From assembly GCA_028683385.1 (NCBI GenBank), contig JAQUIJ010000008.1:62001-126000 (forward strand): a stretch of 64,000 bases of DNA. The letters run 5' to 3'. Under the pieces are notes generated by a model, which made no database searches, was not told the origin of the DNA, and saw only the letters and a list, made by a program, of their open reading frames with translations. The position numbers and the translations under genes were made by a program. The DNA is from Prolixibacteraceae bacterium (GTDB lineage: Bacteria > Bacteroidota > Bacteroidia > Bacteroidales > Prolixibacteraceae). Below, piece by piece: positions 41,453 through 56,334 of this stretch. Position 1 is the first letter of the stretch. Each line of letters opens with the position of its first letter.

Positions 41453-42907
41453 CTAAACTACATAAGTTCTTGAAGTAGTGTCGCCACCTCTTCCGGTCCA
41501 GTTGGTGTGGAAGAATTCGCCACGTGGTTTATCGGTGCGTTCGTAGGTGTGAGCGCCAAAGTAATCGCGCTGAGCCTGTAACAGGTTGGCCGGCAAACGC
41601 TCGCTGCGGATTCCGTCGAAATAGCAAAGCGCTGAAGTCAATGCCGGAACCGGAATTCCGTTGGTCAACGCAATGGCGCAAACACGACGCCATCCGGCCT
41701 GTGCTTTTTCAACCACTTCTTTGAAATAAGGAGCAAACAACAGGTTTTGCAGGTCTGGGTTTACTTCGAATGCTTTTTTGATATCAGCTAAGAAAACCGA
41801 ACGGATGATACATCCACCACGCCACATCAACGCAATACCGCCGTAATTCAGGTTCCATCCGTATTCTTTGGCAGCTTCCATCATCAGGTTATAGCCCTGG
41901 GCATACGAAATAATTTTGGCTCCAAACAAAGCGTCTTTCAGGTCAGAAATCATCTGAGCCTTATCGATTGTTTTGTCAACAACCGGTCCGCTAATCAGTT
42001 TCGAAGCTTCAACGCGCATATCTTTCTGTGCCGATAAGCAACGTGCAAATACCGATTCTCCAATCAATGTCAATGGAATCCCGAGATCGAGAGCCGACAC
42101 TGCAGTCCATTTACCAGTTCCTTTTTGTCCGGCAGTGTCGAGAATTTTTTCCACCATTGGTTGTCCGTCTTCGTCTTTGAAACCCAGAATGTCGCGGGTA
42201 ATTTCAATCAGGTACGAATCCAGGTCGCCTTCATTGTATGTTTTGAAAACGTCGTGCATTTCGTCGGCGCTCATGCCCAACATTTCTTTCATCAACTGGT
42301 AAGCTTCGCAAATGATTTGCATATCGCCGTATTCAATGCCGTTGTGAACCATTTTTACGAAATGACCGGCACCACCTTCGCCAACCCAGTCGCAGCAAGG
42401 AGAGCCGTCTTCCACTTTGGCAGCCACGGCCTGAAAAATTTCTTTTACAGCAGGCCATGCAGCAGGCGATCCGCCTGGCATCATTGATGGTCCGAGCAGT
42501 GCGCCTTCTTCACCACCTGAAACGCCGGTTCCGATGAACAACAAACCTTTGCTCTCCACATATTTAGTACGGCGAATCGTGTCAGGAAAATGCGAGTTTC
42601 CGCCGTCAATGATAATGTCGCCCGGTTCCAGGTGAGGAATAATCAGTTCGATGAAATCATCTACCGGTTGTCCGGCCTTTACGAGCATCATCACTTTGCG
42701 TGGACGTTCGAGCGAAGCGCACAATTCGGCAATCGAATGAGCACCAATGAAATTTTTGCCTTTGCCACGACCTGCCATAAACTCGTCAACACGAGCGGTT
42801 GTGCGGTTAAAAACACCAACTGTAAAGCCTTTGCTTTCCATGTTCAATACCAGGTTTTCGCCCATTACGGCCAACCCGATTAATCCAATGTCTGCTAATT
42901 TTTTCAT
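41453..42907 (-). CDS. gnd: 6-phosphogluconate dehydrogenase, decarboxylating
   Basis: This 484-residue enzyme oxidises 6-phosphogluconate to ribulose 5-phosphate and CO2. It has the NADP-binding start IGLIGLAVMGENLVLNMESK, the catalytic GVSGGEEGALLGPSMMPGG and HNGIEYGDMQ, and the C-terminal dimer region ending near YERTDKPRGEFFHTNW. It is the last gene of the leftward cluster after the LarA-like, kinase and SDR genes, a context that could feed it from gluconate. Confidence 0.95.
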   Translation of the reverse strand: MKKLADIGLIGLAVMGENLVLNMESKGFTVGVFNRTTARVDEFMAGRGKGKNFIGAHSIAELCASLERPRKVMMLVKAGQPVDDFIELIIPHLEPGDIIIDGGNSHFPDTIRRTKYVESKGLLFIGTGVSGGEEGALLGPSMMPGGSPAAWPAVKEIFQAVAAKVEDGSPCCDWVGEGGAGHFVKMVHNGIEYGDMQIICEAYQLMKEMLGMSADEMHDVFKTYNEGDLDSYLIEITRDILGFKDEDGQPMVEKILDTAGQKGTGKWTAVSALDLGIPLTLIGESVFARCLSAQKDMRVEASKLISGPVVDKTIDKAQMISDLKDALFGAKIISYAQGYNLMMEAAKEYGWNLNYGGIALMWRGGCIIRSVFLADIKKAFEVNPDLQNLLFAPYFKEVVEKAQAGWRRVCAIALTNGIPVPALTSALCYFDGIRSERLPANLLQAQRDYFGAHTYERTDKPRGEFFHTNWTGRGGDTTSRTYVV

Positions 42908-42938
42908 TTTGTATAGTTAATAATTTATCTTTTTGTTT

Positions 42939-42995
42939 GAACCACATAGGTCACATAGATTTTATTCGTTTTTTCTATTGTGTGCTATGTGGTTT
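42939..42995. repeat. Inverted repeat, CCACATAG family, copy 1
   Basis: GAACCACATAGGTCACATAG at the left faces CTATGTGGTTTG at the right. The right arm overlaps the last codons and TAG stop of pdxB. Copy 2 is at 46570-46621. Confidence 0.85.
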
Positions 42996-44115
42996 GTACT
43001 TTAAATCCAATTTTTCGCAACACCTCTAACGTTTCGTTCCCGATATTCCTGGTAATAATTGTAAACGCCGGAAACTCCCTTCTGACAGGGTAATCTCCAC
43101 GTAATTGTTCAAATTGCGCCGTGTTTTTCCTGAAATTCTGATCATCATTCCGGATGTCGTAGTTGTGCAAAATAGCTTTGGCAATAATTTCCTGTTCGCT
43201 CGATCCTGTTCCGTCGAGTTCAAAAACAGGGTTTATGGGTTGCTCCACTCCTGAAGGTTGCCAGCTTTCCAGTCCCAAATTGAAATATTTGCTGATGGCA
43301 TGAACACTCATTTCGGTTCCGGTGGCTTTGCCGTCTTTCGAGTACCCGGCAATGTGCGGCGTCGCGATTTCAGTCAAAGCCAGTAATTCCAGATCAATGT
43401 CGGGTTCGTTTTCCCAGCAATCGCATACAAATCCTGAGACCTGTCCACTTTTTAATGCTGTTTTTACGGCAAGCGTTTCAACCACTTCGCCACGGCAGGA
43501 ATTGATCATGATTGGATTCTTTTTCAATCCTGAAAAGAATTCTTCGTTGCCCAAATGGAATGTGGCATCTTCGCCTTTCATATTCAGGGGAACGTGAAGT
43601 GTAATAATGTCAGCTTCGTCCATCACCTGTTTCAAATTAACAAATGCAGCAGAACCTTCAGCGCGTTCGCGTGGCGGGTCGTTCAGCAATACTTTCATGC
43701 CAAACAGTTTGCAGATTCGGGCAACTTTGCTTCCCACATTTCCTACGCCAACAACTCCAATGCAGAGATCATTCAGTTGCAGATTTCTTCGTGCGGCTAG
43801 AACCATCAATGTTGAGGCGATGTATTGTTCAACCGATTTGCTGTTGCAGCCCGGTGCGTTGGTCCATTTGATTCCGGCGGCGTCACAATATTCGGTGTCG
43901 ATGTGGTCGTAGCCAATGGTTGCGGTTGCAATGAATTTTACCGAAGAACCAGCCAGCAATTTTTCGTTGCAAATGGTGCGGGTACGGGTCACAATGGCAT
44001 CGGCATCTTTCACCACTTCAGGAGTAGTTTTTGAACCGGGCAGGTAAACGACCTCCGCCACTCCTTCAAAAGCGCCCCGGATGTAAGGGATTTTATCGTC
44101 GATTATTATCTTCAT
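42985..44115 (-). CDS. pdxB: Erythronate-4-phosphate dehydrogenase
   Basis: This 2-hydroxyacid dehydrogenase makes the second step of DXP-dependent pyridoxal phosphate synthesis. The NAD-binding GVVGVGNVGSKVARICKLFG and catalytic residues in NSCRGEVVE and HIAGYS are present. The C-terminal PdxB dimerisation domain (about 285-376, DUF3410-like) separates it from other family members. The last two codons and stop come from a CCACATAG repeat arm. It lies within a sugar-acid gene cluster, an unusual neighbourhood for pdxB. Confidence 0.9.
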   Translation of the reverse strand: MKIIIDDKIPYIRGAFEGVAEVVYLPGSKTTPEVVKDADAIVTRTRTICNEKLLAGSSVKFIATATIGYDHIDTEYCDAAGIKWTNAPGCNSKSVEQYIASTLMVLAARRNLQLNDLCIGVVGVGNVGSKVARICKLFGMKVLLNDPPRERAEGSAAFVNLKQVMDEADIITLHVPLNMKGEDATFHLGNEEFFSGLKKNPIMINSCRGEVVETLAVKTALKSGQVSGFVCDCWENEPDIDLELLALTEIATPHIAGYSKDGKATGTEMSVHAISKYFNLGLESWQPSGVEQPINPVFELDGTGSSEQEIIAKAILHNYDIRNDDQNFRKNTAQFEQLRGDYPVRREFPAFTIITRNIGNETLEVLRKIGFKVQTT

Positions 44116-44123
44116 AGTTTATT

Positions 44124-45173
44124 TTAAATATTTCGGCAACTGCCTTTAATTCGTTTGTTCTCGTTGTGGATCGGTGCGTAATAATTTTTTACCATTTCTT
44201 CGAGAACTGCGCTTGATCTGGCGGCTGATTTTCCAGTACTTACGCATTCACTTTCTCCCAGTAATGTTTTCACAACCTGAGTAATCAGATTGTACTGTAT
44301 ATTTTCAGGATTTTGGAAACTGAAACTGACTGTTCCTTCCGGAGTTGTCAGGTTTACATCGCCATGCTGAAAACTGGAAAAACTGAGTTTGCCTTTGGTT
44401 CCGTTAATTTCAATGATATCTTCTTCGTTTCCTTTGGCAACTACAAAATACCAACTTCCGGTGCCAATTACACCGTTTCCAAACCGAAAAGTTCCGGTAA
44501 CAGTGTCTTCAGCTTTGTAATATCCTGCCTGATTTGCGGCTATGCCATGAACCTGAATTACCGGACCAAACAGAAAGTCGAGGTAATCGAACTGATGAGA
44601 TGCCAGATCATAAAAATAACCTGCACCTGCAATCTCTGGATTTACATGCCAGAATTGAGTTTCAGGTTTTAAATCACGTTCTGGAGCTGATTTATGCAGG
44701 CAAATATTTACTGTCAATGACTTACCAATAATTTCATTGTCAATCAGCTCTTTAACTTTTAGAAATGCTGGTAAAGTTCTGCGGTAATAAGCTACAAAAA
44801 GCGGTATCCCGGTTTCTTCGGAAACCTGGTTCATTTCCTGACACTCGCTATAATTCAATGCCATTGGCTTTTCTACATAAACAGGTTTGCCGGCGCGCAT
44901 AGCCTGAATGGCATACGAAGCATGTGTATTGGGTGGAGTGGCAATGTAGATGGCATTAACTTCCGGATCGTTGATGAGTTGATCTGCATCAGCGTACCAT
45001 TTGGGCACACCGTGTCGCTTGGCGTAATCTTCGGCCAACGCCCCGTTCCGACGCATCACAGCAACCAATCTTGAATGCTCCACCTTGTTAAAAGCCGGAC
45101 CACTCTTCAGTTCGGTTACATTTCCGCAGCCAATAATTCCCCAGTTTACATCCTGAATTTTATACATCTTCAC
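44124..45173 (-). CDS. Gfo/Idh/MocA family oxidoreductase
   Basis: Residues about 1-125 form a Rossmann domain (NWGIIGCGNVTELKSGPAFN) and the EKPMALN motif holds the catalytic lysine. The rest is the alpha/beta substrate domain. Family members oxidise or reduce sugars and inositols with NAD(P). Starting eight bases before pdxB on the same strand, it belongs to the leftward operon; its sugar is not known. Confidence 0.87.
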   Translation of the reverse strand: MKMYKIQDVNWGIIGCGNVTELKSGPAFNKVEHSRLVAVMRRNGALAEDYAKRHGVPKWYADADQLINDPEVNAIYIATPPNTHASYAIQAMRAGKPVYVEKPMALNYSECQEMNQVSEETGIPLFVAYYRRTLPAFLKVKELIDNEIIGKSLTVNICLHKSAPERDLKPETQFWHVNPEIAGAGYFYDLASHQFDYLDFLFGPVIQVHGIAANQAGYYKAEDTVTGTFRFGNGVIGTGSWYFVVAKGNEEDIIEINGTKGKLSFSSFQHGDVNLTTPEGTVSFSFQNPENIQYNLITQVVKTLLGESECVSTGKSAARSSAVLEEMVKNYYAPIHNENKRIKGSCRNI

Positions 45174-45175
45174 TT

Positions 45176-45258
45176 AGATTAACGATTAACGATAAATGAT
45201 TTTTGATTAACGATTTCTTTTAATCTACAATCGTTAATCTTCAATCTCTAATTGTTAA
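45176..45258. repeat. Intergenic repeat of GATTAACGATT units
   Basis: Several GATTAACGAT units face AATCGTTAATC and TTGTTAATC units, giving a hairpin-forming segment that fills the gap between the LarA-like gene and the oxidoreductase gene. Confidence 0.7.
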
Positions 45259-46548
45259 TCAATAGTTGAATCGGTCTTTAAAAGCCCACAAACCTAGCGC
45301 GGGATTTGAAATGTAGAAAATTTCTTCTCCGTCGGGCATCGTATTGTAGCCATCGCGCAGTTTGGCCGGATCGTATTTGGCAGTTACCTGATCGAAATCG
45401 GCGTAATGGAAACCAACACTTTCGATTTCAGCTTGTGTCAGGTTATCTTTACCTTTTCCGGGGCAATAAGTGATACTGAAACGTCCTTCAGAAGATCCAT
45501 GAATGAGATGAGCTGCGGCGCTCAGGTTGTTGCGAAGTTCTTCGTTTTCGTCACAGCATTTCAGCGTGTTTGGTGTTCCAAAATAACCGTATTTGCGGAT
45601 GAGGCGGTCGATTTCCTTGTCTTCGCCAAACTCTTTCAGAGCAGGTGCCAATACGATCAACTCTCCCTCATCGTCGATGGCCATGCGGGTACGGTAAACT
45701 GATTTGTTGCCCAACCATGTACTTTTGAATTCGGTTGGATCGAGGTAAACCACCACTTTTTTCAGTGGTTTATCCAACATTTCGAAGTTGACCAATAAAG
45801 CCAGCTTTGCAGCTTTGTCGAAAACTTCAAAATCGTCGCCGATATACAATCCGCGGGTTTTGATTTTGCCGTCGGTTTTGTCCAGTCCAACCACAGTTTG
45901 CACGTAAACAATCGGCATATGATTGGTGAAATGTTCCGATGCATAATTGAAAATGCGACGTACCGGTGTATCGGCATGTCCCATCATTCGCTCCATTCCA
46001 TAGGCTGCACCTACAAAGTGACTTTTATTGATCCCTTCAACACCTCCTGTTCCGACGAAAATATTCTTATTGTAATTGGCCATTCCCACTACTTCGTGAG
46101 GAACCACCTGTCCGATCGACAAAATCAAATCGAAATTACCTTCAATCAATAATTTGTTGACTTGAGCCGGCCATGGAAATTCAACTGCACCTCCCGACAC
46201 TTCTTTCACGAATTCAGCAGGAACAGTTCCGACTGTCACCACATCGTTACGCCAGTCATGTTCGCGAATCAATGAAGCAGGCATGGAACCAAACATGTGT
46301 GAAATCTGGTGATCTGTCATGGGCGAATGTGTTCCCAGAGCCGGAAGCACATCTGTCAAAGCATCGCCATAAAATTCCCATGTCATTTCGGTCAGTTCAC
46401 CGGCGCGACTGGGCAAACGCGTGTAATCCGGCGGAATAGCAAGCACTTTCTTCCTTGGTCCCATCTTTTCCAATGCTTCGAACAAACCCTTCTTCAAATC
46501 ATCCGCACTTAATTCCAGTTCTGTTGAGCCAATCTGATAGTATAGCAT
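45259..46548 (-). CDS. LarA family nickel-dependent hydroxyacid racemase/epimerase
   Basis: The 429-residue protein has LarA (DUF2088) marks: IPPDYTRLPSRAGELT, PALGTHSPMTDHQ, and GQVVPHEVVGMANYNKNIFVG followed by GINKSHF, where lysine and histidine should hold the nickel-pincer cofactor. LarA homologues racemise lactate and other 2-hydroxyacids, and a D-gluconate 2-epimerase activity has been described in the superfamily. Between a mannonate-oxidoreductase-like SDR, a sugar kinase and gnd, an epimerase linking D-mannonate and D-gluconate is a good guess. The cofactor genes larB, larC and larE are not in the window. Confidence 0.82.
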   Translation of the reverse strand: MLYYQIGSTELELSADDLKKGLFEALEKMGPRKKVLAIPPDYTRLPSRAGELTEMTWEFYGDALTDVLPALGTHSPMTDHQISHMFGSMPASLIREHDWRNDVVTVGTVPAEFVKEVSGGAVEFPWPAQVNKLLIEGNFDLILSIGQVVPHEVVGMANYNKNIFVGTGGVEGINKSHFVGAAYGMERMMGHADTPVRRIFNYASEHFTNHMPIVYVQTVVGLDKTDGKIKTRGLYIGDDFEVFDKAAKLALLVNFEMLDKPLKKVVVYLDPTEFKSTWLGNKSVYRTRMAIDDEGELIVLAPALKEFGEDKEIDRLIRKYGYFGTPNTLKCCDENEELRNNLSAAAHLIHGSSEGRFSITYCPGKGKDNLTQAEIESVGFHYADFDQVTAKYDPAKLRDGYNTMPDGEEIFYISNPALGLWAFKDRFNY

Positions 46549-46569
46549 GTTTGTGTTTTTTAAGATTTA

Positions 46570-46621
46570 AACTATGTGTTCTATGTGGTTTAACAATTTA
46601 TGAACCACATAGGTCACATAG
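46570..46621. repeat. Inverted repeat, CCACATAG family, copy 2
   Basis: ACTATGTGTTCTATGTGGTT faces AACCACATAGGTCACATAG around a 12-base loop, in the gap between the PfkB kinase and LarA-like genes. Confidence 0.9.
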
Positions 46622-46628
46622 AAATCAA

Positions 46629-47708
46629 TTATCTTTTAACGCGCGCATTTCCGCCCCAGATGCTCCACACCATGTCTTCGTCGGCTGGTTGGGCATAATC
46701 GGTTAGGAAAGTGGTTGCCAAAGCGCCTGTTGCCCAGCCAAATTGCGGCCATTTTTCAGGTTCCCAACCTTTCAGGATACCATAAAGCAAACCGCCTACA
46801 AAACCGTCGCCGCCACCAATGCGGTCGAGCACAGTAATTTTGCGTGGTTCAATAACATGCCAGTCGTTGCCTTCGAGCATAATGGCGCCCCAAAGGTGTT
46901 CGTTGGCGCTGATCACCTGTCGCAAAGTAGTTGCAAATACCGAGGCATTCGGGAAAGCAGCCTTTACGCGGCCAATCATTCCCTTGAAACCTTCGATTTC
47001 GGCTTCAATACCTTTACCTCCGGCTTCAGGTCCTTGAATGCCAAGGCACAGTTGAAAATCTTCTTCATTACCAATCAGTATATCAGCTACAGAAGCAATT
47101 TCAGTAAAGCTTTCGCGCAATTCCTTGTCACGTCCTTTCCAGAACGAAGCACGGTAATTCAGGTCGAAGGCGATGCGGGTACCGTATTTTTTGGCTGCAC
47201 GAGCGATTTCCAGACAGAAGGTTGTTGTTTCGGGCGACAAAGCGCCAATCAATCCTGAAAGGTGAACAATCTGTACGCCTTCTTGACCGAAAATGCGTTC
47301 CAGATCGAAATCTTTCACGTTGAGTGTGCGGCCAACTTCACCGGCACGGTCGTTTTGCACGCGAGGGCCGCGGGTTCCGAAGCCACTATCGGCAATGTTG
47401 AACTGGTGGCGATAACCCCATGGATCGCCTTGTGCCACTTCTGGCCCTTCGTAATCCATGTTCCGGCTGCGAAGGCTACTTTTAATAAACAGGGCAATAG
47501 GACTATCTTTCACGAAAGTAGTGAGTACTTTAACCGGAAGACCAAGTGACGACGAAATGTTTGCAACGTTTGTTTCGGCGCTGGTGGCCTGCATTTCGAA
47601 TAAGTTGCTGCTGTGTACCGGCTGTCCGTTCACCGGTGTAATACGAACACCCATGCTGGTTGGAACCAAAAGGGAATATTTACAATCTTTTTTTAATTCG
47701 AAGCTCAT
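46629..47708 (-). CDS. PfkB family sugar (acid) kinase
   Basis: The PfkB fold is clear, ending with the anion-hole/catalytic motif DRIGGGDGFVGGLLYGIL and DLNYRASFW before it. It resembles 2-keto-3-deoxygluconate kinases but has a longer middle part (about 75-130) than KdgK at 53084. As kdgK is already encoded in the rightward operon, this copy may phosphorylate another acid such as gluconate. It lies between the SDR and LarA-like genes. Confidence 0.85.
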   Translation of the reverse strand: MSFELKKDCKYSLLVPTSMGVRITPVNGQPVHSSNLFEMQATSAETNVANISSSLGLPVKVLTTFVKDSPIALFIKSSLRSRNMDYEGPEVAQGDPWGYRHQFNIADSGFGTRGPRVQNDRAGEVGRTLNVKDFDLERIFGQEGVQIVHLSGLIGALSPETTTFCLEIARAAKKYGTRIAFDLNYRASFWKGRDKELRESFTEIASVADILIGNEEDFQLCLGIQGPEAGGKGIEAEIEGFKGMIGRVKAAFPNASVFATTLRQVISANEHLWGAIMLEGNDWHVIEPRKITVLDRIGGGDGFVGGLLYGILKGWEPEKWPQFGWATGALATTFLTDYAQPADEDMVWSIWGGNARVKR

Positions 47709-47778
47709 TGTATTTGTGATTTATGAATTGTTATTTATTATTTATTCCGAACGTGTAAAATTGTCTTTTAGAGTGTCG

Positions 47779-47801
47779 GTGGCTGAGCTTGTCGAAGCCT
47801 A
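47779..47801. repeat. GTGGCTGAGCTTGTCGAAGCC repeat overlapping the SDR stop
   Basis: GGCTGAGCTTGTCGAAGCC forms a short hairpin (GGCT/AGCC). It reaches into the stop codon of the SDR gene at 47799-47801. This motif is recurrent in many bacterial genomes, as I recall. Confidence 0.65.
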
Positions 47802-48656
47802 GACTCCTCCAAAAGCGCTGTATCCGCCATCGACAGGGATTACGATTCCGGTAACAAAAGAGGAAATGTCGGAAAGAAGAAATAACGTAGTTCCTTGAAG
47901 ATCTTCCGGCTCACCAAATTTGCCCATTGGCGTATTATTTACAATTTTCTGTCCGCGAGCTGAGAAATTGCCGGTTTCCTTATCGAGAACCAAAAAACGG
48001 TTCTGGTCGGTAATGAAAAATCCGGGAGCAATAGCATTTACACGGATTCCAACCTTTGCCAAATGAACGGAAAGCCATTCTGTAAAATTGTTGATTGATG
48101 CTTTGGCGGCTGAATAAGCAGGAATTTTAGTCAACGGTTTGTACGAGTTCATCGACGAAACGTTCAGAACCACGCCTTTTTTATTCTTCAGCATATCGGT
48201 TGTGAAAACCATTGATGGAAGCAAAGTTCCTTTGAAATTGAGTGCAAATACCTTGTCGAAACCATCCATCGACAAACCATAGAACGTATCTTCCAGGTGA
48301 TCGAGGCTGTTTTCGTCCATTTGTTCCACTTTAGTGGTTGCTGTTGGGTGGTTTCCACCTGCGCCATTAATCAGCATGTCAATGTCACCTAATTTCTCGT
48401 TGATGATTTGTTTCGCTTTGATTAACGATTCTTTATCCAATACATTGGCTTCAACACCAATTACTTCAGCATTATATTCTTTTGATATTTCAGCAGCTAC
48501 TCTTTCGGCTGTTTCCTTGTTGAGATCAGCTATCGCAACTTTAACCCCTACTGAGGCCATTGCTTTAACCATTGCTGAACCGATAACTCCACCGCCACCC
48601 GTGATTACACATACTTTACCACTTAGGTCGTTAAAACTGATTGCATTCATTTTCAT
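47799..48656 (-). CDS. SDR oxidoreductase, D-mannonate oxidoreductase-like
   Basis: A classical short-chain dehydrogenase with the NAD site ITGGGGVIGSAMVKAMAS, the NGAGGNHP loop, and catalytic Ser...YSAAK (PAYSAAKASINNFTEWL). The long insertion after NGAGG (about 97-130) is seen in SDR-type fructuronate reductases of Bacteroidota and Bacillus. It would interconvert D-fructuronate and D-mannonate, the step after UxaE/UxaC. It is next to the LacI-type regulator (9 bases), which it follows. Confidence 0.85.
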   Translation of the reverse strand: MKMNAISFNDLSGKVCVITGGGGVIGSAMVKAMASVGVKVAIADLNKETAERVAAEISKEYNAEVIGVEANVLDKESLIKAKQIINEKLGDIDMLINGAGGNHPTATTKVEQMDENSLDHLEDTFYGLSMDGFDKVFALNFKGTLLPSMVFTTDMLKNKKGVVLNVSSMNSYKPLTKIPAYSAAKASINNFTEWLSVHLAKVGIRVNAIAPGFFITDQNRFLVLDKETGNFSARGQKIVNNTPMGKFGEPEDLQGTTLFLLSDISSFVTGIVIPVDGGYSAFGGV

Positions 48657-48665
48657 CTCGTTTAA

Positions 48666-49739
48666 TTATTTATAATAATCCAGATTTTCTTTGGTAATAA
48701 TATCAATGGAAGTATATTTTTCGTTTTTTACCTCTTTCTTCAAAACCAGATGTTCGAAAAGCGTTCTAATCGCATTATATCCCTGTTCTTCAGGTCGCTG
48801 ACAAATCAGGAAATCGATAAATCCTTTCTTTAGGAAACTAATGTTCTCATGAATTAAATCGTGACCTATAACCCGAATGCCAGTCAAATTCAGTTTTTCA
48901 AGAATGCTCGCCAGGTAATAAACCTGCGAGTTGGTTACAAAAATACCTTGAATTTGAGGGTTTGTTTGTAGTAGTGTTTCGATTATGTTTTGTGATTCTT
49001 CTGTTGTCGGATCAGCAATTTCCTGAGTAATCAGATTTCTTGCGGATTCGGGTTTACGTTTACTGAAATATTCGTAGAACCCTTTTTCGCGCTGCACTAA
49101 ATGGTTCATGTTATCCAATTGTTTGGCATAATGCAGAATCAGGATTGATGCTTCAGCAGGAACAGAATAATCGAGTAATTTGGCAGCCAATGTTCCCGAT
49201 TGAAACGAATCCTGACCAATGTAACTTAGCTTGTCACATTCTTTGATGTTTGAATCAATAAATACATATGGAATGTTTCGCTTCATCAGTTCAGCAATAA
49301 ACTCTCTTGATTCCCTGAAAAAGAATGGAGCCAGCACAACGCCTTCCTGATTACTTTCAAGAATAATCTTTGCTTCATGATTAAATGTTAGCGGATCAGA
49401 TTGTTTAAAAAGATGTATTGAAACATTTACACCATATTGATGAATTTCCTGAAAGGCTTTCCGGACACCAATCAAAGGTTTGTTCCAGTAAGATTCGGCT
49501 GAGATAGGTTCAGGCACGAGCAATGCAAATGAAAATGTTTTCTTTGAAGCCAGTGCGCTTGCCAGTAAATTAGGCTGATACTCCATCTCTTCAATAATCG
49601 ACTGAATTTTATCGCGGGTGGCTTTCGATACTTCGCCGCGATTGTGAATCACACGATCAACTGTTCCGATTGAAACGTTTGCTTTTTGTGCGATATCCTT
49701 TATTCGGGTATGATTAATTGCTTTGATAATGATCCAATT
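48666..49739 (-). CDS. LacI family transcriptional regulator (non-standard start codon)
   Basis: The frame codes for a LacI helix-turn-helix (TRIKDIAQKANVSIGTVDRV) and a periplasmic-binding-like sensor domain (from about residue 85). No ATG, GTG or TTG lies before the helix-turn-helix: the frame opens after TAA at 49742-49740, and the first start-like codons are ATC/ATT at 49733, 49730 and 49727. The GTG at 49652 would remove the DNA-binding part. I take the start as ATT at about 49730. It should repress the divergent uronate operons, released by an intermediate. Confidence 0.85.
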   Translation of the reverse strand, partial: NWIIIKAINHTRIKDIAQKANVSIGTVDRVIHNRGEVSKATRDKIQSIIEEMEYQPNLLASALASKKTFSFALLVPEPISAESYWNKPLIGVRKAFQEIHQYGVNVSIHLFKQSDPLTFNHEAKIILESNQEGVVLAPFFFRESREFIAELMKRNIPYVFIDSNIKECDKLSYIGQDSFQSGTLAAKLLDYSVPAEASILILHYAKQLDNMNHLVQREKGFYEYFSKRKPESARNLITQEIADPTTEESQNIIETLLQTNPQIQGIFVTNSQVYYLASILEKLNLTGIRVIGHDLIHENISFLKKGFIDFLICQRPEEQGYNAIRTLFEHLVLKKEVKNEKYTSIDIITKENLDYYK

Positions 49740-49793
49740 TTAATGATGAAATTTATTGAGCAGGAACAAAGCTATGTATTTTTTCTTTGATGT

Positions 49794-49807
49794 CGTGTGC
49801 GAACACG
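49794..49807. promoter_or_regulatory. Operator candidate 1, CGTGT-N4-ACACG
   Basis: A perfect inverted repeat (CGTGTGCGAACACG) upstream of the regulator gene. It has the same half-sites and 4-base spacing as operator 2, at 89 bases centre to centre. Confidence 0.75.
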
Positions 49808-49853
49808 GAAAAAGTATTCTATAACATTTTTAACGATTTTTAGTTTATCATCG

Positions 49854-49884
49854 TTGCAGATTAAAGATATTGTCTATACTTTCG
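49854..49884 (+). promoter_or_regulatory. Promoter of the uxaE operon
   Basis: TTG at 49854-49856, a 20-base spacer and TACTTTCG at 49877-49884 (one mismatch to TAnnTTTG). The operator at 49883-49896 overlaps its downstream edge and the expected start site. Confidence 0.6.
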
Positions 49885-49896
49885 TGTCCGTACACG
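49883..49896. promoter_or_regulatory. Operator candidate 2, CGTGT-N4-ACACG
   Basis: Inverted repeat CGTGTCCGTACACG, covering the expected transcription start of uxaE. Confidence 0.75.
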
Positions 49897-49939
49897 GAAT
49901 TTGGATTGGTTTATTTATATGTCAGTAAATTAATAGTAT

Positions 49940-51187
49940 ATGAAACTCGGAAAGTATAGTTTAGGAATTGGCGACCGCTTCTCACATCAGGGAGTTGCTC
50001 AGCTTCGTGGAATTGTAAAAGCCAATCAGGCAGGTTTAGACATTAGTCCGGTTTGGAACAAGTCAAACCGCGAACACATGTACGTGCATTCTCATCCGGC
50101 CGATGTTCGGAAAGAAGCTGATGCAGCAGTTGCCGCTTTGGGTTTCTCCGGAAAATACTTTGTAGATGCCGACCATATTAATATGGGTACGGTCGCTCCG
50201 TTTGTTGAAACTGCCGATTTTTTTACACTCGACGTAGCGTCGTTTATCGGGAAAGAAAGTCCGGATGCCGAAGTGAAAGCGTTTGTCGCTTCGTGTTCAA
50301 AATATGTTGGAAAACTAAATATTCCAGGAATTGACCATGCGATTGAAGTTTCAGAAGAATTGATTGAAAAAATAGCGCATAAATTTTTAGCTGCAACCCA
50401 GCAGGCCAGCGAAATCTATAATTTTTTAGAATCGTCAAAAGGAAAAGGAAATTTCATTACTGAAGTTTCGATGGACGAAGTTGAAAACCCACAAACACCG
50501 GTCGATTTGTTTTTTATCCTGAAAATGTTGGCCGATAAAGGTGTTCCGGCACAAACCATTGCTCCAAAATTTACTGGTCGTTTCAATAAGGGAGTTGATT
50601 ACACCGGAAACGTTGAGCAATTTGCCAAAGAGTTTGAAGAAGATGTTTTGGTCATTGATTTTGCGGTGAAAGAATTTGGACTTCCTGAAGAATTAAAACT
50701 CAGCGTACATTCCGGAAGTGATAAATTCACGATTTATCCGATCATGGCTGGTATCATCAAAAAATACGACAAAGGAATTCATGTAAAAACAGCAGGTACT
50801 ACCTGGCTCGAAGAAGTAATCGGACTGGCACTTGCCGGTGGTGAAGCTCTGGAAGCCGCCAAATCGATTTACTCCATAGCGCTAGGTCGCAAAGATGAAT
50901 TGTGCGCTCCTTATGCCGATGTCATTGATATTGATGATTCGAAATTGCCCTCGGCTGCTGAAGTTGCTGGTTGGTCGAGCGAAAAATTTGCCAATACTTT
51001 ACGTCATATTCCCGGACATCCGGATTATAATCCAAATCTTCGTCAGTTGATTCATGTAGGCTACAAAGTTGCTTCTGAAATGGGAACAACCTATACCGAT
51101 CTCCTGAAAAAACATGCTGAAGTGGTTGGCCAGTGCGTCGAAGAAAATATTTACGAACGCCATTTGAAAAGGCTGTTTAATCTATAA
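49940..51187 (+). CDS. uxaE: Tagaturonate epimerase
   Basis: The 415-residue product matches the UxaE family, which converts D-tagaturonate to D-fructuronate so both galacturonate and glucuronate can follow one path. Visible features: GIGDRFSHQGVAQLRG at the start, FVDADHINM, DFFTLDVASFIG, KLSVHSGSDKF and HVKTAGTTWLEEVIGLA, with histidines and acidic residues for a metal site. It is first in the rightward operon and directly under the operator. Confidence 0.9.
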   Translation: MKLGKYSLGIGDRFSHQGVAQLRGIVKANQAGLDISPVWNKSNREHMYVHSHPADVRKEADAAVAALGFSGKYFVDADHINMGTVAPFVETADFFTLDVASFIGKESPDAEVKAFVASCSKYVGKLNIPGIDHAIEVSEELIEKIAHKFLAATQQASEIYNFLESSKGKGNFITEVSMDEVENPQTPVDLFFILKMLADKGVPAQTIAPKFTGRFNKGVDYTGNVEQFAKEFEEDVLVIDFAVKEFGLPEELKLSVHSGSDKFTIYPIMAGIIKKYDKGIHVKTAGTTWLEEVIGLALAGGEALEAAKSIYSIALGRKDELCAPYADVIDIDDSKLPSAAEVAGWSSEKFANTLRHIPGHPDYNPNLRQLIHVGYKVASEMGTTYTDLLKKHAEVVGQCVEENIYERHLKRLFNL

Positions 51188-51457
51188 TTACCCCGAAAGG
51201 GTTCAATTTGAATAACCGTGGGTGATAACCCACGGAGTATGAATCAAGATAAATAGTCAGCCCTGAAAGGGTTGAATCTGTTGTCTTATTTGTATTCAGC
51301 CCTTTCAGGGCTGATGGTTTGACTGGCCTTATTTCCGTGGGCTTTACCCACGGTTATTTAGATTTAGTCCTTTCAGAACTGTTTTTGAGTTTTCGGATTT
51401 TTTGAATTGAACTCAAAATTTTAAATAGTAAATTAATAAATAGTAAATCAAAAAAAT
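51188..51457. repeat. Composite palindromic repeat block between uxaE and uxaC
   Basis: It holds CCGTGGGTGATAACCCACGG (51216-51235), CAGCCCTGAAAGGG (51258 on) facing CCCTTTCAGGGCTG (to 51313), and CCGTGGGCTTTACCCACGG (51335-51353), plus half-copies such as CCGAAAGGG and CCTTTCAGAACTG. These nested hairpins resemble known Bacteroidota REP-type blocks and fill most of the 270-base gap. Confidence 0.85.
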
Positions 51458-52858
51458 ATGAAACCATTTATGGACGAGAATTTTCTGTTGCAAACTGAGA
51501 CTGCACAGAAATTATACCATGAACATGCAGCTAAAATGCCAATTTTCGACTATCACTGTCACATTAATCCAAAAGATATTGCCGACGACCGGATGTTTAA
51601 ATCCATCACAGAAATATGGCTGGCTGGCGACCATTACAAATGGCGCGCTATGCGTACAAACGGTGTAGATGAAAAGTATTGCACCGGCGATGCTTCCGAT
51701 TGGGAGAAATTCGAAAAGTGGGCAGAAACCGTTCCTCAAACTTTACGGAATCCATTGTTTCACTGGACTCACCTTGAACTGAAGAAATTCTTTGGAATCA
51801 ATGAAGTTTTAAGCCCGAAAAATGCCCGCCAGATTTTTGACGCCTGCAATGAAAAATTAAAGACTCAGGCATACAGTTGCCGCAATATCATCCGGATGGC
51901 CAATGTGCATACGATTTGTACTACTGACGATCCGATTGACAATTTACAGTATCATCAGCAAATTAAGGCTTCAGGATTTGAAGTCGCCGTACTTCCGGCA
52001 TGGCGTCCCGATAAAGCCATGATGGTTGACGATCCAATATTCTATAATGCCTACATTTTCCAGTTGGCAGAAGCGGCAGGAATGGATATCAGTTCGTTTG
52101 CCGACTTAATTACTGCACTGGATAAACGTCATCAGTATTTCCACGAAAATGGTTGTCGCTTGTCTGATCATGGTTTGGATACCGCTTTCGCTGAAGATTA
52201 TACTGCAAAGGAAATTCGGGCGATTTTTTCTAAGGTTAGGGCTGGAAATCACTTGACTTCCGAAGAAATTTTGAAGTTCAAATCGTGCATGTTGTATGAG
52301 TTTGGTGTGATGGATCATTCACGTGGTTGGGCACAGCAATTTCATATTGGAGCGCTTCGTAATAACAATACCCGATTGTTCAATAAATTAGGCCCTGATA
52401 CTGGTTTCGATTCAATTGGCGATAAACCGGTTGCTGAACCTTTATCTAAATTACTGAACCGTCTGGATATGGAAGATAAATTGTGCAAAACGGTTTTGTA
52501 TAACCTCAATCCGGGCGATAATGAATTGTATGCCACGATGATTGGCAACTTTCAGGATGGAAGCGTTCCAGGCAAAATGCAATATGGTTCCGGATGGTGG
52601 TTTCTCGATCAGAAAGACGGAATGGAAAAACAAATAAATGCGTTATCGAACCTCGGTCTGCTAAGTCGTTTTGTAGGAATGTTAACCGATTCCAGAAGTT
52701 TTCTTTCGTACACCCGTCACGAGTATTTCCGTCGTACCCTTTGCAATATTTTAGGTAACGATGTGGAAAATGGCGAAATTCCGAACGATATGGAATTACT
52801 TGAGCAAATGGTTGAAAACATATGCTTCAACAATGCAAAAAACTATTTCAACTTTTAA
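51458..52858 (+). CDS. uxaC: Glucuronate (uronate) isomerase
   Basis: This TIM-barrel amidohydrolase-like enzyme converts D-glucuronate to D-fructuronate and D-galacturonate to D-tagaturonate. Marks: FDYHCHINPKDIADD near residue 30, ICTTDDPIDNL, WRPDKAM, LSDHGLD and WWFLDQKDGME. The 466-residue length is standard. It follows uxaE after a repeat block. Confidence 0.96.
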   Translation: MKPFMDENFLLQTETAQKLYHEHAAKMPIFDYHCHINPKDIADDRMFKSITEIWLAGDHYKWRAMRTNGVDEKYCTGDASDWEKFEKWAETVPQTLRNPLFHWTHLELKKFFGINEVLSPKNARQIFDACNEKLKTQAYSCRNIIRMANVHTICTTDDPIDNLQYHQQIKASGFEVAVLPAWRPDKAMMVDDPIFYNAYIFQLAEAAGMDISSFADLITALDKRHQYFHENGCRLSDHGLDTAFAEDYTAKEIRAIFSKVRAGNHLTSEEILKFKSCMLYEFGVMDHSRGWAQQFHIGALRNNNTRLFNKLGPDTGFDSIGDKPVAEPLSKLLNRLDMEDKLCKTVLYNLNPGDNELYATMIGNFQDGSVPGKMQYGSGWWFLDQKDGMEKQINALSNLGLLSRFVGMLTDSRSFLSYTRHEYFRRTLCNILGNDVENGEIPNDMELLEQMVENICFNNAKNYFNF

Positions 52859-52895
52859 GAATAAGTTGTTTTTCGCGTCTTTTGGTACAAACAGA

Positions 52896-53013
52896 ACTTG
52901 GTGAAATTGATAAAATTGGTAGATTTGCAATCGATTGCATTAAAAGCTTGCTTAGGGCATGGAGCGAAGAGCTTGGGTAAACGCGGAACGCGTATCCCGC
53001 ACCCCGAACCAAG
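52896..53013 (+). ncRNA. Structured, tRNA-like element of unknown nature
   Basis: A perfect 7-base-pair closing stem (ACTTGGT with ACCAAGT) encloses 104 bases. Inside are the self-complementary TGCAATCGATTGCA (hairpin) and ACGCG-GAA-CGCGT. The segment after the first arm (GAAATTG, then AATTGGTAGA) is like a tRNA-Leu D-arm, but no T-arm with GTTCGA is found and 118 bases is too long for a tRNA. It lies between uxaC and kdgK. Confidence 0.4.
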
Positions 53014-53083
53014 TAGCAATAATTTTAAAGTCAGTTACTTGAAATGGTGAATTGTAAATCAATAAATTGTAAATAGAATTAAG

Positions 53084-54115
53084 ATGAGAGTAGTTACATT
53101 CGGAGAAATCATGTTGCGACTTGCAACTCCTGGTTATTTGCGTTTTAATCAAACAGATAGTTTAACAGCCACTTTTGGTGGTGGTGAGGCCAATGTGGCC
53201 GTTTCGCTTGCAAATTTTGGCATTCCGGTTGGTTTTGTAACCCGTTTGCCTAAAAACGACATTGCCCAGAGTTGTGTGATGGATCTGCGGAAATACGGAG
53301 TCGGAGTGGATCAGATTGTATATGGTGGCGATCGTTTGGGAATTTACTTCCTTGAAACTGGCGCTGTAAGCCGTGGATCGAAAGTGGTTTATGACCGTGC
53401 ACATTCGGCCATTTCAGAAATTAAATCAGGAATGATTGACTGGGATAAGGTTTTTGAAGGCGTAAACTGGTTTCATTGGACTGGTATAACTCCAGCTATT
53501 TCGCAGGGTGCTGCCGATGTTTGTCTGGAAGCTATTCAGAAAGCCAACGAAAAAGGGATCACCGTCTCGTGCGATTTGAATTACCGCAAGAATTTATGGA
53601 ACTACGGAAAAAAAGCTGGCGAAGTGATGCCTGCACTGGTTGCCGGAACGGATGTGATTTTGGGTAACGAAGAAGATGCCGAAAAAGTATTGGGAATTAA
53701 ACCTGAAGGTGTTGATGTAACTGGCGGTCATGTTGAGGCTGCTGCTTACGAATCTGTTTCAAAACAGATTATGGCTAAATTTCCGCGTTGTAAAAAAGTA
53801 ATTACTACTTTGCGTGGATCAATCAATGCCAATCACAACAGTTGGTCGGGTGTGCTTTGGGACGGAAAAACATTGTTTGAAGCTCCGACTTACCAGATTA
53901 CCGATATTGTTGACCGCGTTGGTGGTGGCGACTCATTCATGGGTGGTTTAATTTACGGTTTGCTGACTTATACCGGCGACGATCAGAAAGCGTTGAATTT
54001 TGCAGTGGCCGCATCGTGCCTGAAACATACCATCTATGGAGACTACAACCAGGTAACTGTTGACGAAGTAGAAAAACTCATGGGTGGCGATGCTTCGGGT
54101 CGTGTAGCAAGATAA
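53084..54115 (+). CDS. kdgK: 2-keto-3-deoxygluconate kinase
   Basis: PfkB-family kinase with GGGEANVAVSLANFG and the catalytic DRVGGGDSFMGGLIYGLL near residue 290. It phosphorylates 2-keto-3-deoxygluconate to KDPG, the substrate of the aldolase that follows. The 343-residue length fits Bacteroidota KdgK. The next gene begins 64 bases later, across a palindrome. Confidence 0.92.
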   Translation: MRVVTFGEIMLRLATPGYLRFNQTDSLTATFGGGEANVAVSLANFGIPVGFVTRLPKNDIAQSCVMDLRKYGVGVDQIVYGGDRLGIYFLETGAVSRGSKVVYDRAHSAISEIKSGMIDWDKVFEGVNWFHWTGITPAISQGAADVCLEAIQKANEKGITVSCDLNYRKNLWNYGKKAGEVMPALVAGTDVILGNEEDAEKVLGIKPEGVDVTGGHVEAAAYESVSKQIMAKFPRCKKVITTLRGSINANHNSWSGVLWDGKTLFEAPTYQITDIVDRVGGGDSFMGGLIYGLLTYTGDDQKALNFAVAASCLKHTIYGDYNQVTVDEVEKLMGGDASGRVAR

Positions 54116-54129
54116 GCAAAAATAATTAT

Positions 54130-54157
54130 GTAGAGACGTAACATGTTACGTCTCTAC
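54130..54157. repeat. Palindromic repeat, GTAGAGACG family, copy 2
   Basis: A perfect 28-base palindrome (GTAGAGACGTAACA plus complement) between kdgK and eda, with the same outer arms as the copy at 21174-21201. Confidence 0.92.
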
Positions 54158-54179
54158 CAATAAATATAAGATTGAATTT

Positions 54180-54851
54180 ATGGCACGTTTTACAAGAATA
54201 GAAGTAGCATTAAAAATGAAGGAAACCGGTATGGTCCCGGTTTTTTACCATAAAGATGCCAATGTTTGCAAACAGGTGGTGAAAGCCTGTTACGAAGGTG
54301 GCGTTCGTGTTTTCGAATTTACAAACCGTGGTGATTTTGCACACGAGGTGTTTGCTGAAGTGTCGAAATGGGCTGTTAAAGAAGCTCCGGAAATGATTTT
54401 GGGAGTTGGCTCTGTTATTGACAGCGCAACGGCTGCATTATACATTCAGTTGGGATCTAATTTCATTGTTTCTCCATTGATTGATGAAGATACAGCTCGT
54501 TTCTGCAATCGTCGTAAAATCGCCTGGAGCCCGGGTTGCGGTTCGGTTACAGAGATTAATCGTGCACATGAATTGGGTGCCGAAGTGGTTAAAGTATTCC
54601 CGGGTTCATCGGTTGGTGGTCCTGATTTTATTTCAGGAGTAAAAGGCCCGATGCCTTGGGCCAGCATTATGCCAACAGGAGGCGTTTCGCCTGACGAAGC
54701 CAACCTGAAAGGCTGGTTCAAAGCCGGAGTTCATTGTGTGGGCATGGGCTCGCAATTGTTTCCGAAAGAGGTAATTGAAGCTGGAAACTATGGTGCTATC
54801 GCTGAAAAATGCAGCCAGGCATTGGAAATCATTAAAAAACTAAGAACGTAA
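54180..54851 (+). CDS. eda: KDPG aldolase (4-hydroxy-2-oxoglutarate aldolase family)
   Basis: The enzyme splits KDPG into pyruvate and glyceraldehyde 3-phosphate. TIM-barrel motifs include GVRVFEFTNRGDFA, GVGSVIDSATAALY, FIVSPLIDE and VKVFPGSSVGGPDFI with the Schiff-base lysine in the latter region, and IMPTGGVSPDEANL. It completes the uronate path in this operon. Confidence 0.93.
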   Translation: MARFTRIEVALKMKETGMVPVFYHKDANVCKQVVKACYEGGVRVFEFTNRGDFAHEVFAEVSKWAVKEAPEMILGVGSVIDSATAALYIQLGSNFIVSPLIDEDTARFCNRRKIAWSPGCGSVTEINRAHELGAEVVKVFPGSSVGGPDFISGVKGPMPWASIMPTGGVSPDEANLKGWFKAGVHCVGMGSQLFPKEVIEAGNYGAIAEKCSQALEIIKKLRT

Positions 54852-54888
54852 TTAAATATAAACCAGTACTAATCACTAAAACTAAATT

Positions 54889-56334
54889 ATGCAATCGACC
54901 AATAGCCTTGCGAAGATGACGAACTACCGATGGACAATAGTTGCCCTCTTGTTTGTGGCCACAACTATTAACTATCTCGATCGTCAGGTCTTGTCCTTAA
55001 CCTGGGATGAGTTTATTATGCCCGAATTTCATTGGAATGAAAATCATTACGGAACGATTACTTCCATTTTTTCAATTGTTTATGCCGTTTCAATGTTGTT
55101 TGCCGGAAGTTTTGTAGACTGGCTGGGAACTAAAAGAGGATTTTTGTGGGCAATCGGAGTGTGGTCGGTAGGTGCTTGTATGCACGCTCTTTGTGGTGTA
55201 GTTACTGAAAGTTGGGTTGGCTTGCATTCTGCGGTTGAACTGGCACAGGCTGTTGGTGATGTTGCTGTACTTATTTCCACCGTTAGTATGTATGCCTTTA
55301 TTGTTGCACGTATTATTTTGGCTATTGGAGAGGCTGGAAACTTTCCGGCTGCCATTAAGGTTACTGCTGAATATTTTCCTAAAAAAGACCGTGCTTATGC
55401 TACCAGTATTTTCAATGCCGGTGCTTCTGTCGGTGCGCTAATTGCTCCGCTTTCAATTCCTTTTTTGGCTGCTGCTTATGGTTGGGAAATGTCCTTCGTC
55501 GTGATTGGTGCTTTAGGATTTCTTTGGATGGGTTTTTGGGTATTCTTGTATAAAAAACCGGAACAAAATAAATTCGTAAACAGTGCCGAGCTAAATTATA
55601 TTTTATCCGACAGGGAATCGAAAGATGAGTTGGAAATGCAAGCCTCTGCTGTTCAGGAAAAGAAAGTTTCGTTTATCGATTGTTTCAAGTATAAACAAAC
55701 CTGGGCATTTGCATTTGGTAAGTTTATGACCGATGGCGTTTGGTGGTTCTTTCTGTTTTGGACTCCATCGTATCTGAATATGCAGTTTGGAATTAAAACA
55801 TCTGACGGATTAGGTGCAGCTCTTATTTTCACCTTATACGCCCTTGCCACACTTTCAATTTATGGTGGAAAACTACCTTCAATTATTATCAAAAAAACCG
55901 GACTGAACCCCTATGCAGCCCGAATGAAGGCCATGTTTATTTTTGCATTTATTCCACTTTTGGTTTTGTTGGCTCAGCCTTTAGGAACCTTTTCTCCATG
56001 GTTTCCGATTATACTTATCGGTTTCGGATGTGCAGCTCATCAGTCGTGGTCGGCAAATATATTCACGACGGTTGGCGATATGTTCCCCAAACATGCCATT
56101 GCAACAATCATCGGAATTGGTGGAATGGCTGGTGGAGTCGGTTCCATGATTCTGCAAAAATCGGCCGGAGCTCTATTCGTTTATGCAGGCGAAACCAAAA
56201 TGACTTTTCTTGGATTTGAAGGAAAACCTGCTGGTTATTTCATGGTATTCATTTTTTGTGCTGTGGCTTACCTGATTGGATGGACTGTAATGAAATCATT
56301 GGTGCCGAAGTATAAACCGATTACAGATTTATAA
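54889..56334 (+). CDS. Hexuronate transporter (ExuT-like MFS)
   Basis: About 12 helices with TTINYLDRQVLSLTWD near the start and an MFS loop DWLGTKRGFLWA, as in the anion:cation symporter group holding ExuT. A segment of about 30 residues between helices 3 and 4 (CGVVTESWVGLHSAVELAQ) is longer than in E. coli ExuT. Last gene before the terminator, it should import galacturonate/glucuronate. Confidence 0.9.
   Translation: MQSTNSLAKMTNYRWTIVALLFVATTINYLDRQVLSLTWDEFIMPEFHWNENHYGTITSIFSIVYAVSMLFAGSFVDWLGTKRGFLWAIGVWSVGACMHALCGVVTESWVGLHSAVELAQAVGDVAVLISTVSMYAFIVARIILAIGEAGNFPAAIKVTAEYFPKKDRAYATSIFNAGASVGALIAPLSIPFLAAAYGWEMSFVVIGALGFLWMGFWVFLYKKPEQNKFVNSAELNYILSDRESKDELEMQASAVQEKKVSFIDCFKYKQTWAFAFGKFMTDGVWWFFLFWTPSYLNMQFGIKTSDGLGAALIFTLYALATLSIYGGKLPSIIIKKTGLNPYAARMKAMFIFAFIPLLVLLAQPLGTFSPWFPIILIGFGCAAHQSWSANIFTTVGDMFPKHAIATIIGIGGMAGGVGSMILQKSAGALFVYAGETKMTFLGFEGKPAGYFMVFIFCAVAYLIGWTVMKSLVPKYKPITDL

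Follow-up and report, generated by a model that had tools for sequence, protein, structure and literature searches.

The stretch of DNA considered here (the window) comprises 64,000 nucleotides of contig JAQUIJ010000008.1 (positions 62,001 to 126,000 of the forward strand) from the Prolixibacteraceae bacterium assembly GCA_028683385.1, a genome designated G000 in this work and listed as 100 complete with a contamination value of 3.58. It holds a predicted hexuronate locus in which one LacI-type regulator separates a rightward arm, consisting of uxaE-uxaC-kdgK-eda and a gene for a transporter of the major facilitator superfamily (MFS), from a leftward arm that encodes a short-chain dehydrogenase/reductase (SDR), a PfkB-family kinase (PfkB2), a LarA-family protein, a Gfo/Idh/MocA oxidoreductase, PdxB, and Gnd. 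This gene content, the two divergent arms and the single regulator had been described by an earlier interpretation made from the letters alone (the sequence-only reading), and they are borne out: every gene named there is an open frame at the coordinates given below, and the named families were matched with Pfam or NCBIfam profiles. Coordinates are positions within the 64-kb window, and bits are given as score/curated cut-off. KDG refers to 2-keto-3-deoxygluconate, KDPG to its 6-phosphate, and KHG to 2-keto-4-hydroxyglutarate.

41453..42907, minus strand: gnd, decarboxylating NADP 6-phosphogluconate dehydrogenase (TIGR00873, 759/427)
42985..44115, minus strand: pdxB, 4-phosphoerythronate dehydrogenase (NF001309, 456/434)
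44124..45173, minus strand: gfo, Gfo/Idh/MocA oxidoreductase (PF01408, 95/24)
45259..46548, minus strand: larA, LarA group 18 (LarA18), predicted C2-epimerase of mannonate or 6-phosphomannonate (NF052594, 660/500)
46629..47708, minus strand: pfkB2, predicted gluconate (or mannonate) 6-kinase (PF00294, 68/26)
47799..48656, minus strand: sdr, predicted fructuronate reductase in the role of UxuB (PRK08277, 'D-mannonate oxidoreductase', 376/281)
48666..49733, minus strand: lacI, LacI-family regulator (PF13407, 128/35; PF00356, 28/27)
49794..49807, no strand: operator copy 1, CGTGTGCGAACACG (motif match, kept in related loci)
49883..49896, no strand: operator copy 2, CGTGTCCGTACACG (half-sites recur twice before uxaB-uxaA in G000)
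49940..51187, plus strand: uxaE, tagaturonate/fructuronate epimerase (PF16257, 186/27)
51458..52858, plus strand: uxaC, glucuronate/galacturonate isomerase (PF02614, 705/25; NF002794, 666 bits)
53084..54115, plus strand: kdgK, PfkB family, KDG kinase by context (NF041633, 503 bits, below its cut-off of 700)
54180..54851, plus strand: eda, KDPG/KHG aldolase (PRK07114, 369/275)
54889..56334, plus strand: MFS transporter, probably for hexuronates, a substrate suggested by context (PF07690, 164/33)

The leftward genes follow one another in the order lacI, sdr, pfkB2, larA, gfo, pdxB and gnd with intergenic gaps of 8-90 bp, which gives this run the appearance of one operon. Its gnd is the single copy over the cut-off in G000. 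The best model for kdgK, NF041633, describes the kinase part of a KDPG-aldolase fusion.

The explanation favoured for this locus, to which a probability of about 0.73 is assigned, is that of one hexuronate regulon with two exits, in which mannonate would leave via LarA18, PfkB2 and Gnd. UxaC and UxaE would make tagaturonate and fructuronate, and the SDR would reduce fructuronate to D-mannonate. Mannonate would then be converted into 6-phosphogluconate by LarA18, acting as a C2-epimerase with the nickel-pincer nucleotide (NPN) cofactor, together with PfkB2, which would phosphorylate position 6. Finally, Gnd would decarboxylate 6-phosphogluconate to ribulose 5-phosphate, recovering the reducing power used by the SDR, while KdgK and Eda would handle the KDG derived from altronate by uxaB-uxaA, encoded elsewhere in G000. 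The substrates, directions and regulation proposed here are all deduced from gene content, linkage, missing matches, operators and conserved residues.

The LarA protein of the window (659.5 bits with NF052594, 'putative hexonate epimerase', in the search of its own genome) belongs to group 18 and lies outside the GntE groups 19 and 20, no model of which appears among its NCBIfam matches. Its nearest solved structure, both by sequence and by fold, is 4NAR, the GntE2 protein of Thermotoga maritima, which the predicted model of LarA18 (predicted local distance difference test, pLDDT, of 88.5) matches with an E-value of 1.4e-28 and 24% identity; identity to ten other LarA proteins, some of them GntE2-like, is 24-28%. 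The residues D41, R44, H74, H151, K161, H177 and K282 are invariant in sets of 15 and 32 proteins and correspond by alignment to D72, R75, H108, H174, K184, H200 and K298 of LarA (NPN ligands and catalytic residues, in the numbering used in the available text of PMC7583248). They also align with those of GntE-like proteins. Moreover, LarA18 exhibits the signature attributed to groups 18-20 in the same source (PMC7583248), EV/S after the catalytic His and a Trp in helix 11, as H151-E152-V153 and W278. In agreement with a nickel cofactor, G000 carries larB (301 bits), larC1 (209 bits) and larE (290 bits) in one run.

The GGGD catalytic motif of PfkB2 (G298-D301) is invariant in 20 proteins, and its model has a pLDDT of 79.9. 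The nearest solved relative by sequence is 2AFB, a KDG kinase. The best KDG-kinase model of NCBIfam gives 98/440, a weak test because the kdgK of the locus is itself under these cut-offs. In an alignment of 17 KdgK, 49 PfkB2 and 17 PfkB proteins of another type, PfkB2 is devoid of the GG pair near KdgK residue 33, which is kept in KdgK and in the other PfkB type, and differs from KdgK at many fixed positions; both non-KdgK types share changes with respect to KdgK, such as GGGDS to GGGDG. The KdgK and other-PfkB clades have a tree support near 1, and the PfkB2 clade carries the label 0.51. The motif differences and the placing beside larA argue for PfkB2 as a family apart from KdgK. In a phylum sample of 296 genomes, PfkB2 orthologues over 700 bits occur in four, each adjoining larA, and the next five matches (207-221 bits) all have a LarA gene at most 13.1 kb away, or no more than 3 kb away in four cases. 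Sixteen of the 296 genomes hold a LarA over the NF052594 cut-off (group 18 genomes). In the 15 other than G000, the kinase near larA is PfkB2 in three and the other PfkB type in eight (directly between sdr and larA in six of them), while two genomes have a PfkA-type protein accompanied by a HAD protein. The PfkA-type and HAD proteins may represent a third kinase type, a possibility to be set beside a pyrophosphate-dependent phosphofructokinase acting later in the pentose phosphate pathway. PfkB2 itself has no match to TIGR01313 or TIGR01314 (P-loop and FGGY gluconokinases), and a literature search that covered few subscription papers returned no title on a PfkB gluconokinase of this kind. Ordinary gluconokinases were also considered as the true kinase and set aside, as none of 19 genomes passed the P-loop GntK or the FGGY cut-off; for P-loop GntK, reached in two of 14 controls, weaker matches (20-25 bits) appear in two of the 19.

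Linkage was studied in 80 group 18 loci, the best 80 of at least 584 relatives obtained from a scan of genome contigs. In 45 of these loci, larA is flanked by 4 kb or more in each direction (informative loci), the other 35 being too short to judge. Within 4 kb of larA, these 45 loci encode Gnd in 39, a kinase of any of the three types in 38, and an SDR in 36; the co-occurrence of this LarA group with gnd and SDR genes in other genomes had been put forward for checking by the sequence-only reading. Gnd and a kinase are both present in 32 loci, and SDR, kinase and Gnd in 31, which include records of Bacteroidota, Ignavibacteria and Planctomycetota. The order sdr-kinase-larA is kept in 30 of these 31 complete loci, with gnd also placed after larA in 25; larA with gnd is likewise found in Kiritimatiellae and Limisphaerales records. 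Less frequent neighbours are pdxB (22 of 45), Gfo/Idh/MocA genes (15) and uxuA (five). A HAD hydrolase appears in two loci, never together with pdxB. As 4-phosphoerythronate has been reported to inhibit Gnd and to be cleared by phosphatases (PMC6449344), Gnd may be shielded from this inhibitor by PdxB or by the HAD hydrolase.

Two other arrangements were observed around LarA genes. In L065, L068, L069 and L070 (Petrimonas, Proteiniphilum and relatives), the genes that come after larA encode a glycoside 3-dehydrogenase-like and a 3-keto-disaccharide hydrolase-type protein. In L147, L148, L150, L151, L153, L154 and L155, from genomes of one family, a LarA of another group lies near a gnd-like gene whose product is 27-30% identical to Gnd, and these loci probably serve a different pathway.

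The whole-genome content of the 16 group 18 genomes, none of which has a second LarA match, is taken as the strongest indication that the larA branch can supply Gnd with its substrate. No UxuA match was obtained in G000 at an E-value of 0.001, and 12 of the 16 have none. RspA/ManD was tried as a hidden mannonate dehydratase and rejected, since matches are weak in 13 of the 16 (at most 74 bits) and no genome, G000 included, has one over the cut-off of 430. An altronate dehydratase domain is present in two, one of them G000. By these profiles, UxuA, RspA-type and altronate dehydratases are all absent from ten genomes (G014, G031, G035, G062, G078, G093, G124, G176, G224 and G263), among which are the five that also lack Zwf (G014, G031, G093, G124 and G263); the other 11 of the 16, including G000, encode Zwf. 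A single Gnd over the cut-off is nevertheless encoded in all 16, at most 2.5 kb from larA in 14, and in the five genomes devoid of Zwf and of the three dehydratase types it lies at most 8.3 kb from larA. In the absence of Zwf, Gnd in those five genomes needs another source of 6-phosphogluconate, for which the larA branch is the candidate.

Similar loci seem to be built around other LarA proteins. In the phylum sample, 16 more genomes gave weaker matches to NF052594, 13 of which (148-189 bits) belong to other LarA groups. Uronate-type genes surround six of these 13, those of G179 (counted on its SDR and gnd alone), G200, G120, G251, G055 and G228. The relation to 4NAR was examined for the LarA of G200, which aligns with it at 229 bits. 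Beside larA, G200 and G055 carry gnd together with the second PfkB type, and G179 carries gnd with the PfkA type; the G120 and G251 loci run into contig ends. The replacement of group 18 by GntE2-like LarAs in similar loci points to a similar function.

Regarding regulation, two copies of CGTGTNCGNACACG are found in the divergent gap (49794-49807 and 49883-49896), 89 bp apart, where shuffles expect 0.04. The motif CGTGTNNNNACACG occurs in 22 of 142 loci examined, and a pair spaced 89-90 bp is also present in L033, L034, L037, L039 and L042. Among the G000 loci outside the window (L138, L139 and L142), the motif appears twice in L142, upstream of two genes that encode a tagaturonate reductase (PRK03643, 645/359) and a galactarate/altronate dehydratase family member (PF20629, 338 bits; TIGR03248, below its cut-off with 303 bits). 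These genes, on a contig other than that of the window, are read as uxaB and uxaA. The common operators only suggest co-regulation of both arms and uxaB-uxaA, and because they are shared, one regulator probably governs the two arms and the altronate route. Since uxaB-uxaA is kept under the same operator, the KDPG branch probably leaves at tagaturonate. Mannonate has no known entry to the KDPG route in G000, as UxuA was not found, and for this acid the proposed branch would take the place of the UxuA step, given that neither UxuA nor an RspA-type protein over the cut-off is present. The statement of the sequence-only reading that the new route runs beside the KDPG route was thus imprecise, with KDPG probably being fed from altronate via uxaB-uxaA.

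A separate observation concerns the translation start of the regulator. The frame of lacI with a standard start (48666-49652) truncates the DNA-binding domain, whose helix-turn-helix continues to about 49733, and translation seems to start at an ATT or ATC codon near that position. Between the last stop codon and the DNA-binding domain, ATG, GTG and TTG are all absent in the window and in eight of ten relatives inspected (L034, L035, L039, L042, L050, L054, L055 and L058), where the apparent start is ATT, ATC or ATA; standard starts are found in L033 (TTG) and L037 (ATG).

The conversion of mannonate into 6-phosphogluconate is already in print, and the route itself is not new. Rodionova reportedly proposed in 2012 a mannonate-to-gluconate branch for the hexuronate catabolism of T. 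maritima. Valk 2020 (PMC6978723) credits that study, in the text available, with proposing mannonate-gluconate epimerization, and Desguin 2020 (PMC7583248) proved the conversion of mannonate to gluconate by T. maritima GntE2, an activity shown there for members of groups 19 and 20; a third GntE was added by Desguin 2024 (PMC11770544, available portion). Group 18 was named by Desguin 2020 and assumed to act on hexonates, and the accessible assay table contains no member of this group. The T. maritima gluconate branch (UxaE/UxuB/GntE2/GntK/Gnd) shares with this locus the predicted reactions and a LarA-family epimerase encoded beside uronate and kinase genes. Contrary to the predicted LarA18, its epimerase is an assayed group 20 protein, and its kinase is named GntK instead of being a PfkB protein. 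The G000 locus would similarly place candidates for a fructuronate reductase, a LarA-type epimerase, a kinase and Gnd in one regulon. In Lactobacillus suebicus, the pathway has the same start (mannonate) and the same end (6-phosphogluconate and ribulose 5-phosphate); there it is known by activity without genes, and here from genes alone. According to the available text of Valk 2020 (PMC6978723), extracts of that bacterium show a mannonate kinase followed by a 6-phosphomannonate epimerase, whose genes are not given, and form no gluconate from mannonate without ATP; this was the only source for phosphomannonate or 'mannonate kinase' in the literature searched, with few subscription papers covered. 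UxaC, SDR, KdgK and Eda are common to the classical isomerase (Ashwell) pathway, which uses UxuA, whereas G000 has no UxuA match and UxaB/UxaA probably feed KdgK. What is new here is the UxuA-less G000, the larA18 genomes without dehydratases or Zwf, the adjacency of PfkB2 and larA, and the GntE2-like LarAs in similar loci.

Several observations weigh against the two-exit regulon with a LarA18/PfkB2/Gnd branch. One is that ten of the 16 group 18 genomes (G031, G035, G051, G062, G093, G124, G176, G188, G224 and G263) have no LarC match and no LarE over the cut-off with the LarC and LarE profiles, including eight of the ten dehydratase-less genomes, which is hard to square with a nickel cofactor. 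In the nine of these genomes whose LarA was aligned (all except G031), the residues that bind the cofactor are nevertheless invariant. Such genomes may import the cofactor or make it by another route, or their LarA may work without it. Linkage also shows gaps. No gnd lies near larA in six of the 45 informative loci (L082, L083, L094, L099, L101 and L109, five of them Verrucomicrobia) or in the stretch of G228, with its GntE2-like LarA; gnd is 8.3 kb from larA in G014 and unlinked in G176. No same-strand PfkB or nearby PfkA-type kinase was found in seven loci (L074, L087, L096, L098, L100, which has a PfkB on the opposite strand, L103 and L108), nor any kinase in the 20 kb stretch around larA in G062, and the PfkB of G039 is 13 kb away. 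The gluconokinase tests, FGGY above all, are weak because each cut-off is reached in only two of 14 controls, and nearly full-length FGGY gluconokinase-like proteins under the cut-off (232-319 bits) are present in six of the 19 genomes. An inverse relation between group 18 larA and UxuA in the raw sample was considered and dropped: UxuA is present in four of the 16 group 18 genomes vs 72 of the 280 others, and with frequencies so alike there is no general anti-correlation. Absence calls rely on profile thresholds in mostly draft genomes, no assay of a group 18 LarA was found in a literature search that covered few subscription papers, and G000 could also return fructuronate via UxaE to the altronate route.

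The branch from mannonate to 6-phosphogluconate is nonetheless probable and well supported by comparative genomics. The core of the series fructuronate, mannonate, 6-phosphogluconate and ribulose 5-phosphate that the sequence-only reading had drawn is supported by linkage, missing enzymes and larA-near gnd genes; its placing of the epimerase before the kinase is one of two possible orders, the kinase having come first in the L. suebicus extracts. Given the branch, epimerase first is favoured by a modest margin of belief. Its counterpart is a version of the same branch, whose odds are included in those of the two-exit regulon: PfkB2 would be a mannonate kinase and LarA18 a nickel-dependent 6-phosphomannonate 2-epimerase, with no free gluconate. 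This version, possible although the less expected one, would agree with both activities in the L. suebicus extracts, with the lack of gluconate formation without ATP there, with the absence of a P-loop gluconokinase over the cut-off in the 19 genomes, and with the Km of GntE-type enzymes for mannonate, 9-120 mM in the accessible parts of PMC7583248 and PMC11770544. The sdr-kinase-larA order (30 of 31 loci, with gnd following in 25) points the same way, but gene order is weak evidence. In contrast, GntE2 of T. maritima uses free mannonate, three loci combine these kinase types with GntE2-like LarAs, and a sequence comparison of the distal loop, which favours neither order, brought out no phosphate-binding feature in LarA18. 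Were the kinase to act first, L. suebicus-type genes would occur in an unrelated phylum, with a gluconate-free, redox-neutral route replacing UxuA and a Gnd independent of Zwf in some genomes.

A different acid as the substrate of LarA18 and PfkB2, for instance a further hexonate or an aldarate, is unlikely; on this reading gnd and pdxB would owe their place in the operon only to the co-regulation of pentose-phosphate enzymes with sugar acids. Such a role would fit the lack of a group 18 assay in the literature found, the mere assumption of a hexonate in the consulted text of the naming paper (PMC7583248), the additional Gfo/Idh/MocA gene of the operon, and the loci without gnd or kinase. It is at odds with the joint presence of SDR, kinase, larA and gnd in 31 of 45 loci across Bacteroidota, Ignavibacteria and Planctomycetota, with the larA-near Gnd of the five genomes devoid of Zwf and the three dehydratase types, and with the GntE2-like LarAs in the same kind of locus. 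Far less credible is that PfkB2 acts as a second KDG kinase, on KDG made by an unrecognized dehydratase, with LarA18 only scavenging gluconate to mannonate. The relationship of PfkB2 to 2AFB speaks for it; a KdgK-like kinase is, however, already present in the locus, PfkB2 departs from KdgK in the GG pair and at many fixed positions, no known mannonate dehydratase family passes its cut-off in G000, and gnd would be left unexplained.

The two-exit regulon would assign a candidate role both to group 18 of LarA and to a PfkB family distinct from KdgK, and would supply candidate genes for the two L. suebicus activities measured and unassigned in the available text of Valk 2020 (PMC6978723). It also suggests that some Zwf-less genomes of the phylum keep Gnd for uronates rather than for glucose. 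According to Valk et al. (PMC6978723), the fermentation of pectin-rich wastes could profit from a path between pectin sugars and ribulose 5-phosphate that is redox-neutral.

To the left of the operon, the open reading frame 39518-40198 resembles by eye a REP-associated transposase, from a motif characteristic of those proteins, and the Pfam search gave no match to it. Between this frame and gnd, a TIR-domain protein (CAP12/Pycsar effector, 31 bits) is encoded at 40325-41305, just left of the operon, and is possibly the product of an anti-phage gene.

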